Origin: Ignisphaera sp.
GTDB lineage: Archaea; Thermoproteota; Thermoprotei_A; Sulfolobales; Ignisphaeraceae
Direction of reading: 5' to 3'
DNA length: 64,000 bases
NCBI GenBank assembly: GCA_038831005.1
Contig: JAWBKZ010000001.1
Coordinates: 62,001-126,000 of the forward strand
Shown here piece after piece: positions 16,213-19,412 of this stretch. Every line of letters starts with the position of its first letter. Within the stretch, counting starts at the first letter, position 1. The position numbers and the translations under genes were made by a program. The notes under the pieces are model-generated. The model worked only from the letters and a program-made list of their open reading frames with translations, searched no databases and was not told the DNA's origin.

Positions 16213-16300
16213 GCGGGGGTGCCCGAGCTAGGTCAAAGGGGTCGGGCTCAGGACCCGATGGCGTAGGCCTGCGTGGGTTCAAATCCCACCCCCCGCACCA
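16213..16300 (+). tRNA. tRNA-Leu, anticodon CAG
   Basis: A class II tRNA of 88 bases with CCA encoded at 16298-16300. The acceptor stem GCGGGGG pairs with CCCCCGC. The anticodon stem TCGGG/CCCGA encloses the loop CTCAGGA, with anticodon CAG at 16249-16251. A long variable arm, TGGCGTAGGCCTGCG, follows, and the T arm is GTGGG-TTCAAAT-CCCAC. The long variable arm and the anticodon both indicate leucine (CUG codons). Stems are almost all G-C, as expected in a hyperthermophile. No intron is seen. A degenerate copy of its 3' half lies at 18091-18140. Confidence 0.95.
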
Positions 16301-16439
16301 TGAAACCTTGTTTCACTATGAAGTTAACTACTTCTTCAACCAGTCTTCTCGTCATCAGTTTGAGATTCTGTTTGGAAAGTCCTGCAGTTAATCTGATTTT
16401 CAATTCTGACGCTTCAACCCAGCGACTATTGGAAAAAGT
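16248..16439 (-). pseudogene. Possible integrase N-terminal fragment running into tRNA-Leu
   Basis: On the minus strand a frame is open from just after a TGA at 16440-16442 to a stop inside the tRNA, 63 codons. It encodes RWVEASELKIRLTAGLSKQ, then a helix with TRRLVEEVVNFIVKQ, and a tail GVGFEPTQAYA that is read from the tRNA itself. A frame that enters the 3' end of a tRNA from the element side is what the int(N) piece of an SSV-type integrase does after integration. The helical segment is compatible with a core-binding domain. There is no convincing start codon, so it would be a remnant. Homology is not proven. Confidence 0.3.
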
Positions 16440-16751
16440 TCATTATTTTCATTACTGGAGCAATAATAGATACCTTCATAGATATGACTTTCTTTGATGT
16501 AGATGTAATGGACATTATGTTAATGAGACTACAGAGAATAACGAAGCTTGTTGACACTATAGCGAAGCAGTAGAAGAGGAAATGAATTCTAGTTCATAAA
16601 TATTGAGATAACTCAGAGGTCAGGGTTAGAGGTATCGATGGGACTACTCTTGTTGTAGTGTCTAGTTCATCTCTATCGTTGGTTCAGCAGATCGGCGCAA
16701 GCGATGGAGGTGACATCTCTCACCATTAGAACAATCTAAACTACGGTTCTC

Positions 16752-16919
16752 ATGAACTCATATGGAATAGCAACATCAACAATATATGCGATGGTGTTAC
16801 TGATAATTGTAATACTCTCAATAGCGATACCACTGGTATTCCTAAGGTACATACTGGTCTTTATCAACAAAATATTTCAGTTTTCTCTTGCACCTCTTTT
16901 GTCTTGGGTATGTGAATGA
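16752..16919 (+). CDS. Small hydrophobic membrane protein (55 aa)
   Basis: A 55-residue frame with one or two membrane helices (MVLLIIVILSIAIPLVFL near residues 14-31). Its TGA overlaps the ATG of the next gene as ATGA, a translational-coupling arrangement. There is no strong ribosome binding site, and an in-frame stop lies 15 bases upstream of the start codon. It might be a chaperone or partner of the secreted protein that follows, or a decayed piece of a larger gene. Confidence 0.4.
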   Translation: MNSYGIATSTIYAMVLLIIVILSIAIPLVFLRYILVFINKIFQFSLAPLLSWVCE

Positions 16920-17866
16920 AAGTGATGATGATTTCAGTACTTATGTTTGTTACTTTCTTTGTTAGTGTTCATGCCTATAGTGTTTATAACGTTATCGATG
17001 TCCGTCACGCATTACTGTTTCTGAAATCTCAGTACATCGAAGAAGCTGGATTGCTGAGAGCAGCAGTGAGAACGTATCCAGACAATACAACAATATATAT
17101 AGCAAACGACAACATCCTCGCTGCGAGGGCTCTTGCTATCCTAGGAGATAGGGATCTATCTAGTAGGATACTCACGAAGCTGAACAATGAGTATAGTGGA
17201 GGCTTCAATGGTAGAATAGAGATACTCTTTGGTGTGGACATACCAGAGGTGTTCTATACACCAGTTCACGAAGAGCTAGGGAGTGTAGGTGAGTACAGGA
17301 TCATCTATGAAAGGCCTGGGAACCAAGTTATCGAGGATTGGCACGAGTACGCCGACTTGGTTGTGTACCGTGCACTAAAGCAATTGCTCTGGGGCTCCAG
17401 AGCGCAGGCTGAACTACTCTTTCTTGAACTAGTGAGAATGTGGGATGGATACGGATTTAGAGATAAAGCATATACTGCCACAGGTATGTATAGTACATAC
17501 AAATGCGGGCTCTTCATCTACCTCTACCGTGCTCTTGATTCAGCTGGATCAGATATTGTTAAAGACCACGTTAATATCAGGAACAAGTGCCTTGAGATAA
17601 TAGCAATGGCTCAAGACCTCGAGACAGGTGGGATAAGAACAGACTACAGAGTCGTCAATGAGGAAATCATCATTGAGGGAGACGTGAACGTTGAAACAAC
17701 AAGCATTATTGTATTAGCGCTCTACTCCGATTACCCACTAGTGTTCTCGAGAAGCACTAGACAAGTTAACCCAGTTGCCAAAGCGTATCCACTTGCTGAG
17801 CCAGTAGCATATCTAGTAATAGCGTTAATAGTGTTTATATATAGATTTATATGGAAACCTGTCTAA
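16916..17866 (+). CDS. Secreted or membrane-anchored uncharacterised protein
   Basis: A 316-residue protein with an N-terminal signal sequence (MISVLMFVTFFVSVHA). A large, mostly helical extracellular part with aromatic and acidic residues follows, and a C-terminal membrane segment, AYLVIALIVFIYRFIW, ends in a short basic tail. Several helices of alternating AL-rich and GF-rich turns recall an alpha/alpha-toroid, such as those in glycan-acting or cyclase-like proteins, but I see no diagnostic motif. Codons are more C/G-ending than in neighbouring genes, a sign of foreign origin. It lies inside the tRNA-associated segment and is coupled to the small hydrophobic frame. Confidence 0.6.
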   Translation: MKVMMISVLMFVTFFVSVHAYSVYNVIDVRHALLFLKSQYIEEAGLLRAAVRTYPDNTTIYIANDNILAARALAILGDRDLSSRILTKLNNEYSGGFNGRIEILFGVDIPEVFYTPVHEELGSVGEYRIIYERPGNQVIEDWHEYADLVVYRALKQLLWGSRAQAELLFLELVRMWDGYGFRDKAYTATGMYSTYKCGLFIYLYRALDSAGSDIVKDHVNIRNKCLEIIAMAQDLETGGIRTDYRVVNEEIIIEGDVNVETTSIIVLALYSDYPLVFSRSTRQVNPVAKAYPLAEPVAYLVIALIVFIYRFIWKPV

Positions 17867-18090
17867 GCTGACCATAATACCACAAGTAATACATTGAATC
17901 CTTCTCTAAGCCTCTTTGAACTTTTCCTACTCCCCACACATTAATGTTAGACTGTACTCGGTAATGGAGATGTTGTTCCTACAGGATATACAGGAGGTTA
18001 TTAAACGCTTTGGAGTACTTACCAAGTGGTTCAAGAAGAATAGGAAGAATCAACTCTGTGTGCGAACAGTTAATTAGGGATCAACTAGAT

Positions 18091-18140
18091 GTTAAGCTTA
18101 GGACTCAAGATGTAGGCTTACATGGGTTCAAATTCTCTGC
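18091..18140 (+). pseudogene. Degenerate tRNA-Leu 3'-half-like sequence (possible att remnant)
   Basis: The stretch GTTAAGCTTAGGACTCAA aligns with GTCGGGCTCAGGACCCGA of the tRNA-Leu at 16241-16258. After a one-base offset, GTAGGCTTACATGGGTTC and the next four bases align with the variable and T arms, and the TGGGTTCAAAT core is identical. The anticodon-loop triplet reads TAG instead of CAG. Stems contain mismatches and G-T pairs, and no 3' CCA is present, so it is not a working tRNA. The substitutions are nearly all C-to-T or G-to-A. It is in the same orientation as the intact gene. Confidence 0.55.
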
Positions 18141-18263
18141 ACTAGAGTTCCTCTACTAGTGCTTAAGCATCTAATATATTATTTTCATTAAAATCTCGAT
18201 TAAGATTAAGAGATAATGATAGTTTGTTTCTCGTAATACACGACGTAGCCAGCTTCTATGTGC

Positions 18264-19412
18264 TTAAGAAATGTCTCTCCACAGTAATTCAAGTTGATCA
18301 GCATATTCATACACTTCTTCAAGCTCTTTACTACTTACATGTCTATTTATGTCGCTATATTGATGAGCTTTATATTCAGGTCTGTATTGATCCATGATAT
18401 TGACTAGAACCCTATCTTTCGGAAGATTTTCTGCTATCCATCTCAATACAGGCTTCAAGCAACACTCTATATGGTTTGGAAGTACGAGATGGCGTATGAT
18501 CATGTCCCCCCATTCTATGGCTATGCGGTGATTCCTGCCAACAACTTCTAGATATTTAGGTATACCTGAAAGTCTTTGAGCGCATGAGTTGTTTCCATAC
18601 TTAAAGTCTGGTAGCCATATATCTATCACGTATATTAATAGATTTAGAGCTTCTTCACTCATATAGAAATTACTATTCCATAACTGAGGAACATTCACAT
18701 CTAGAAACCTCATGCTATCTAAGATGTTATGTATATCTGGTGTAGGATCTCCACCTACATGATTAATGTTTCTAGCACCCTTACGTCTGAGATCTTTTTG
18801 CATAAGTGCAAGTTGATGGGATGATACTTCGATACCATTGAAAGGATTTTCTTGAGATATATCCCAATTTTGACAAAAAACACACCTAAAGTTACAACTT
18901 CCATAGAAAATAGTTCCACTAGGAACGAGAGGAGCTTCTTCACCTATATGTAGAAACCAGCTATGTACATAAGATCTACTATCAAGTCTACAGAAACCTC
19001 TTCTACCTTCACTTCTATCGATACCGCATCTCCATTCACAAAATCTACAGCTTTTCAGTATTTTAAATGCTATCTTGGTCTCGAGATCCAGTAGATTTGG
19101 AGTAGATTCTCCATACTTTTTCTTAAACTCTCTAAACCCTATACCAGATTTTCGAACCTCTTGCCATAAAGAAGTAAAAATCTTTCCAGTATCTCTATGT
19201 ACACCTACTAGACTATCTATATCTAGAGAATTCATATTGCCAACATCTCTAGGGATTTCCACAGCCTTAGCTATATGAAATTTAGCGGGATAATCATCAA
19301 GAAGAATAGCATAATACCAGCTCAAAGTTTTTCTAAAGGTCTCGTTATGGAGGGCTCTTATAGCATCAGGCCTGACATAATACCAGTAACTTTCTTTTAG
19401 TATGTCTTTCAA
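18264..19412 (-). CDS. Radical SAM protein, PflA-like (COG1313 type)
   Basis: A 382-residue protein. The radical SAM cluster motif CNFRCVFCQNWDIS lies near residues 172-182. Before it sits a second cysteine set, CRFCEWRCGIDRSEGRRGFC, at about residues 122-141, typical of the archaeal pyruvate formate-lyase-activase-like family and probably binding another cluster or a metal. The barrel continues with HVGGDPTPDIHNIL and IWLPDFKYG. In this family the partner enzyme is often unknown, and no glycyl radical enzyme is nearby. The ATG at 19412 is used. An 814-base non-coding region lies upstream. Confidence 0.85.
   Translation of the reverse strand: MKDILKESYWYYVRPDAIRALHNETFRKTLSWYYAILLDDYPAKFHIAKAVEIPRDVGNMNSLDIDSLVGVHRDTGKIFTSLWQEVRKSGIGFREFKKKYGESTPNLLDLETKIAFKILKSCRFCEWRCGIDRSEGRRGFCRLDSRSYVHSWFLHIGEEAPLVPSGTIFYGSCNFRCVFCQNWDISQENPFNGIEVSSHQLALMQKDLRRKGARNINHVGGDPTPDIHNILDSMRFLDVNVPQLWNSNFYMSEEALNLLIYVIDIWLPDFKYGNNSCAQRLSGIPKYLEVVGRNHRIAIEWGDMIIRHLVLPNHIECCLKPVLRWIAENLPKDRVLVNIMDQYRPEYKAHQYSDINRHVSSKELEEVYEYADQLELLWRDIS

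Follow-up and report, generated by a model that had tools for sequence, protein, structure and literature searches.

A probable, strongly decayed provirus related to Aeropyrum pernix ovoid virus 1 at a leucine tRNA gene of Ignisphaera

In a contiguous stretch of 64 kb from an Ignisphaera genome (the window, as we call this whole stretch in what follows), an intact leucine tRNA gene is followed, across a segment of about 1.8 kb, by a degenerate copy of part of itself. We wish to determine what this segment is, and how it came to lie between a tRNA gene and a piece of the same gene. The reading we favour is that the segment is very probably a strongly decayed provirus, integrated at tRNA-Leu(CAG), of a family related to the Aeropyrum pernix ovoid virus 1 (APOV1).

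The tRNA is the only one in the window, and ARAGORN and Rfam (56.2 bits) agree on its identity. No other place in the window outside the tRNA itself matches it as well as the degenerate copy, whose local alignment score is 41 compared with 26 for the runner-up; shuffled sequence never scored as well, in 0 of 1000 trials of one test and in 0 of 300 of another. The copy corresponds to nucleotides 29-88 of the tRNA and runs in the same orientation. For nucleotides 1-28 there is no counterpart upstream of the copy, where 345 of 1000 shuffles score equally. Over nucleotides 29-72 the copy carries 11 substitutions, 10 of which are C>T or G>A, along with one gap of a single base. The segment has, in short, the outline of a provirus integrated in a tRNA gene, with the whole tRNA at one end while at the other its 3' part recurs as a direct repeat (Table 1). 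An earlier note on this DNA, made from the letters alone, had described the intact tRNA, the degenerate copy and the predominance of C-to-T and G-to-A changes, as well as a small membrane frame and a secreted frame with less AT-biased codons in between. All of these descriptions hold; the secreted gene has a GC3 of 0.42, compared with 0.24-0.29 in the neighbouring genes.

Table 1. Positions of the features at the tRNA-Leu(CAG) locus, numbered from the first letter of the window.
Feature	Position	Strand	Basis or remark
Intact tRNA-Leu(CAG), probable integration target	16213..16300	+	ARAGORN and Rfam
Left attachment repeat (attL), tRNA nt 29-88	16241-16300	+	core delimited by comparison with the proviruses of G119 and G036
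Left end of segment, decayed or replaced	16301..16728	.	no detectable homology to G136/G153; no int(N) signal
Small hydrophobic membrane protein ORF	16752..16919	+	related to APOV1 orf12-85 through the G108/G119 copies
Intact 316-aa secreted, C-terminally anchored protein, probable virus cargo	16916..17866	+	fold predicted
Non-coding tail	17867..17933	+	DNA homology to G153 (to 17933), partly to G136
VP2-like gene remnant (IQEVIKRFGVLTKWFKKNRK), ~20 codons	17988..18047	+	G136 comparison; score 67
Right attachment site (attR), degenerate direct repeat of tRNA nt 29-88	18091..18144	+	
Host flank up to radical-SAM gene	18145..18263	.	radical-SAM gene at 18264-19412, minus strand

We now consider the contents of the segment. 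Between the secreted gene and the degenerate copy there is a remnant, missed in the earlier note, which is 65% identical over 20 codons to ORF92 of the locus G136:C7; 0 of 2000 shuffles are as good, and the next-best place in the window scores 40. ORF92 is VP2-like by a weak profile match, and its relative in G136:C1 matches the Fuselloviridae VP2 family (PF25632) at 6.7e-8, above the cutoff. In the G136:C1 provirus this VP2-like gene adjoins the C-terminal part of an integrase gene, int(C), and attR. The window itself retains of the VP2 family just the 20 codons that match ORF92. The membrane ORF is linked to APOV1 by way of intermediates rather than directly. Homology to G136 extends upstream of it to about 16686, with a stop, and as a candidate major capsid protein it yields weak matches (His1 capsid, E 0.08).

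The same genes are found together elsewhere. In G136:C7, which belongs to another family, tRNA-Leu(CAG), the membrane ORF, the secreted gene and ORF92 follow one another as they do in the window, with 71-76% DNA identity and unrelated flanks; in the genus-mates of G136, a tRNA-Leu(TAA) lies upstream of the proteasome alpha gene (psmA) of this locus, and the three genes are absent there. We turn next to larger proviruses. In G119, an element of 18.5 kb is bounded on one side by an intact tRNA-Leu(CAG) and on the other by a repeat, 60 bp long, of nucleotides 29-88 (98%); it carries an SSV-type int(C) at the repeat (PF16795, 4e-45; another of the related proviruses matches at 3e-44) and members of both the membrane and the secreted families inside. 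In G036 a 59-bp repeat of nucleotides 30-88 is accompanied by an integrase. In G136:C1 we find a tRNA-Leu repeat (nucleotides 19-86, 87%), int(C), VP2 directly inside, and then a block that is collinear with G119 and with G108, where the secreted gene lies in the same gene cluster. The two marks of an SSV-type integrase element, an int(N) reading into the tRNA and an int(C) at attR, are both present in G119, and the int(C) part is present in G136:C1 and G036. The order tRNA, membrane ORF, secreted gene, VP2, attR in the window is the order, and the orientation, of these larger proviruses. Thus the secreted, membrane and VP2-remnant genes are common to the window and to proviruses that bear integrases.

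Three of these loci are APOV1-related proviruses or provirus-like clusters that have so far gone undescribed: L209 (G136:C1:219500-239400), L171/L179/L180 (G119:C1:264703-283364) and L170 (G108:C26). The first two are located at tRNA-Leu with an SSV-type int(C), and L209 has a VP2-family gene as well.

Small size and recurrence might also be explained if the segment were a mini-element or satellite, consisting of the membrane ORF, the secreted protein, VP2 and the attachment sites, which a helper virus moves and packages. We consider this improbable while according it some weight, because three loci (G136:C7, G153 and the window) have the same contiguous trio; the segment is, moreover, of similar size in the window and in G136:C7, and the larger related provirus at G136:C1 could serve as helper. 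However, we found neither free nor identical copies, and a scan of viral contigs gave no match. The VP2 gene is disrupted in the window and incomplete in G153, and attR is absent in G136:C7, which looks like decay; and the first base with homology lies at different distances from the tRNA (89 and 429 bp).

A decayed provirus raises the question of its integrase. The earlier note had pointed to a minus-strand frame that seemed to read from the element side into the 3' end of the tRNA, and had proposed comparing it with archaeal integrases. That frame (16248-16403) consists of the antisense of the tRNA (VRGVGFEPTQAYAIGS) and of unsupported upstream sequence, a chance extension; the antisense portion VRGVGFEPTQAYAIGS occurs at nearly all tRNA-Leu genes of the genus. 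When the frame was aligned to the int(N) of G003, 474 of 1000 shuffles were equally good, and its alignment to an int(N) profile (17 rows, from 15 loci, G119 and APOV1) was no better than that of shuffled sequence. It is not an integrase remnant. The guess about position was nonetheless sound, as int(N) sits in that very place in G003 and G119. Nor did an int(C) profile give any signal over 17867-18110. With these two profiles neither half of the integrase is recognisable in the window, from which replication genes are absent too, and we therefore class the segment as a remnant.

If the segment was inserted, the site should be empty in relatives. We searched ten genus-mates, the comparison that the earlier note had recommended. 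A block formed by an HTH gene, a CopG-type gene and tRNA-Leu(CAG) is kept in most of them, and in all ten the 1.8-kb segment is missing at tRNA-Leu(CAG), with the membrane and secreted genes downstream of the tRNA in 0 of 10. The radical-SAM orthologue of G001 is separated by 57 bp, with nothing between, from an intact tRNA-Leu(GAG), oriented like the degenerate copy. This junction resembles an empty site, though indirectly, having been reached through rearrangement and at GAG instead of CAG.

The G001 arrangement could also be taken to mean that a second tRNA-Leu gene once functioned beside the radical-SAM gene and that the degenerate copy is what remains of it as a pseudogene, having nothing to do with integration. 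We hold this to be very unlikely, because the copy comprises only the attachment core, as in the attR of G119 and G036, while nucleotides 1-28 are at shuffle level, and because virus genes lie between the two copies. An exchange of 3' flanks between tRNA-Leu genes explains why the radical-SAM gene adjoins GAG and not CAG in G001.

Such exchanges are a feature of the genus. Across the tRNA-Leu loci of 11 genus genomes (the window, L092-L101, L106, L111, L213, L215 and L219-L234), the 5' flanks are largely conserved for each isoacceptor (CAG, TAG, GAG), and the 3' flanks are exchanged between isoacceptors. The TAG 3' flank of the window genome is the CAG 3' flank of G001; the CAG 3' flank of the window genome, with the radical-SAM gene, is the GAG 3' flank of G001; and the TAG 3' flank of G001 is the CAG 3' flank of G002 and G010. 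These genes appear to act as rearrangement breakpoints, for which the integrase-driven inversions of Thermococcales (PMC5495485) offer a comparison. Fragments of int(N) read into tRNA-Leu at L097:5592-5891, L142, L143 and L141, at CAG or TAG genes in G003 and G010 and at another tRNA-Leu in G001; other integrations have therefore struck tRNA-Leu in the genus.

The secreted gene has a history distinct from that of its host. Its closest homologues are in other families (74% identity in G136, 72% in G153), and genus-mates have either no homologue or paralogues of 33-36%. For one and the same pair, the window genome and G136, the secreted proteins are 74% identical compared with 50% for psmA, and the gene has therefore moved horizontally. 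Wherever a tRNA lies within 1.5 kb of a homologue in another genome it is a tRNA-Leu, in 6 of 6 cases, of which two are from genomes of one genus; by our own estimate, taking ~5 Leu among 44 tRNA genes, the chance of this is roughly 10^-5 to 10^-6. That the gene is instead an ordinary host gene of the order, adjacent to a tRNA copy by coincidence, would accord with the presence of homologues in 56 of the order's 214 genomes and with the host flanks that some of them keep in sister species, but we find it scarcely credible in view of those distant closest homologues, the departure of its GC3 from that of neighbouring genes, and its place inside an integrase-bearing provirus in G119 and in the same cluster in G108.

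Searches of Pfam, PHROGs, PDB sequences and phage records with the secreted protein gave no match. With a structure model (pLDDT 80.5, pTM 0.77), the best Foldseek matches in the PDB, at E 2e-3 and a TM-score of only about 0.3, are (alpha/alpha) enzymes, GH76 mannanases among them; in BFVD there was no match. The predicted fold hints at a loose likeness to (alpha/alpha) glycan-acting enzymes, and we make no assignment. Because of this likeness, and of the position that the gene shares with the glycoside-hydrolase region of APOV1, we would guess that surface glycans are what the protein acts on when the virus enters or is released.

Compared with its two closest homologues, the window gene has a pairwise dN/dS of 0.13-0.28 (two methods), and between sister genomes the ratio is 0.22-0.29 in three pairs (G018-G164, G042-G052, G004-G005), in 2 of which both members have the chromosomal flanks of the gene in common. 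These values are compatible with the gene having been kept after integration, although pairwise ratios are not separable for the window copy alone. We offer, tentatively and as somewhat less than an even chance, the idea that the protein has been domesticated: as proviruses at tRNA-Leu decay across several archaeal families, this gene would stay open under purifying selection, and hosts would keep a virus-derived surface or secreted protein that acts on glycans, perhaps to keep out related viruses or to remodel the surface.

Two further sets of homologues are worth recording. At L126/L174 (G035 and G121), the secreted gene lies near tRNA-Leu(GAG) and has a dS of 1.16 between the genomes, compared with 0.31 for a flanking gene, which suggests that it was replaced or separately acquired. 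In G030, L140 and L139 contain distant homologues amid small unknown ORFs; the L140 cluster is flanked by tRNA-Phe and tRNA-Gly, has a weak integrase-like match and perhaps represents another virus group.

Taken together, the segment's absence from ten genus-mates, the larger proviruses that have these genes in this order, and the two with the same core (nucleotides 29/30-88) beside an SSV-type int(C) uphold the proposal of the earlier note, namely an old and mostly eroded virus-like integration at the tRNA. Against a provirus stand the loss of all integrase sequence from the window, the indirectness of the empty-site comparison in G001 (GAG, not CAG), and the fact that secreted-gene loci do not all show both ends: no attR was found beside the secreted gene in G136:C7, G153, G128 or G018, or in the 4.1-kb interval of G009.

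The decayed provirus most probably arose as follows. A small circular dsDNA virus related to APOV1, of the guttavirus/fusellovirus group, would have integrated into tRNA-Leu(CAG) in an archaeon of Ignisphaera type by means of its SSV-type integrase, which would have recombined the virus-borne 60-bp 3' part of the tRNA with the matching stretch of the tRNA gene. The layout of the attachment sites is the one that SSV-type integration produces: the virus would carry this part inside its integrase gene, the tRNA would be restored and stay whole, and the far end would receive a second copy of nucleotides 29-88, attR. Once the integrase halves were lost, the provirus would be trapped. Erosion would remove int(N) and int(C) along with the replication genes, cut VP2 to a short remnant and let attR decay by C>T and G>A changes, with the membrane ORF and the intact secreted-protein gene as survivors. 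The order of these losses, like the former size of the element, is something we infer.

A provirus of this kind would place APOV1-related viruses in the history of Ignisphaera; related proviruses lie at tRNA-Leu genes in the Desulfurococcaceae. To our knowledge, APOV1-related viruses are known from one Aeropyrum isolate. The locus would illustrate clearly how such proviruses erode and which gene outlasts the rest, and at the tRNA-Leu genes of the genus the integration of viruses would come together with the rearrangement of the chromosome.

How does the locus compare with known systems? Trapped integrated elements of archaea include proviruses and plasmids bordered by int(N) and int(C) (reviewed in PMC8371274). 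Like them, the window has what a tyrosine recombinase leaves behind when it integrates an element at the 3' part of a tRNA, namely a restored tRNA and, at the far end, a partial repeat of it; unlike them, it has lost both integrase halves. With the Fuselloviridae (SSV1 and its relatives), the related proviruses share the SSV-type suicidal integrase (PF16795, phrog_5127), VP2 (PF25632) and attachment at a tRNA, whereas for the other genes of the window there is no match among fuselloviruses, and the DnaA-like protein of G136:C1 is 56% identical to that of APOV1 compared with 29% for SSV1.

APOV1 is the named virus closest to the related proviruses, by this DnaA-like initiator, by orf9 (39-42%) and by most of the gene order. 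Viruses of its family, the Guttaviridae, have an ovoid or droplet virion and a circular dsDNA genome of 14-20 kb. The DnaA-like ATPase, the glycoside hydrolase orf10, orf9 and the collinear block are absent from the window; the DnaA-like gene and much of the APOV1 block occur in G136:C1, G119 and G108, and homologues of orf9 and orf10 solely in G136:C1. The window differs from APOV1 also in retaining merely ~1.8 kb, in its host family, in a secreted protein that has no sequence relative there, and in a VP2 match of which none was seen in APOV1. The APOV1 provirus sits in a tRNA-Leu gene (PMC5882108), as does the segment in the window, and the window's family shares with APOV1 both this target and an att core located within the gene of an SSV-type integrase. 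The order from orf9 to orf21 is mostly common to APOV1, G136:C1, G119 and G108; the place of orf12-85 is taken by the small hydrophobic ORF and, in G119, that of the glycoside-hydrolase region by the secreted gene.
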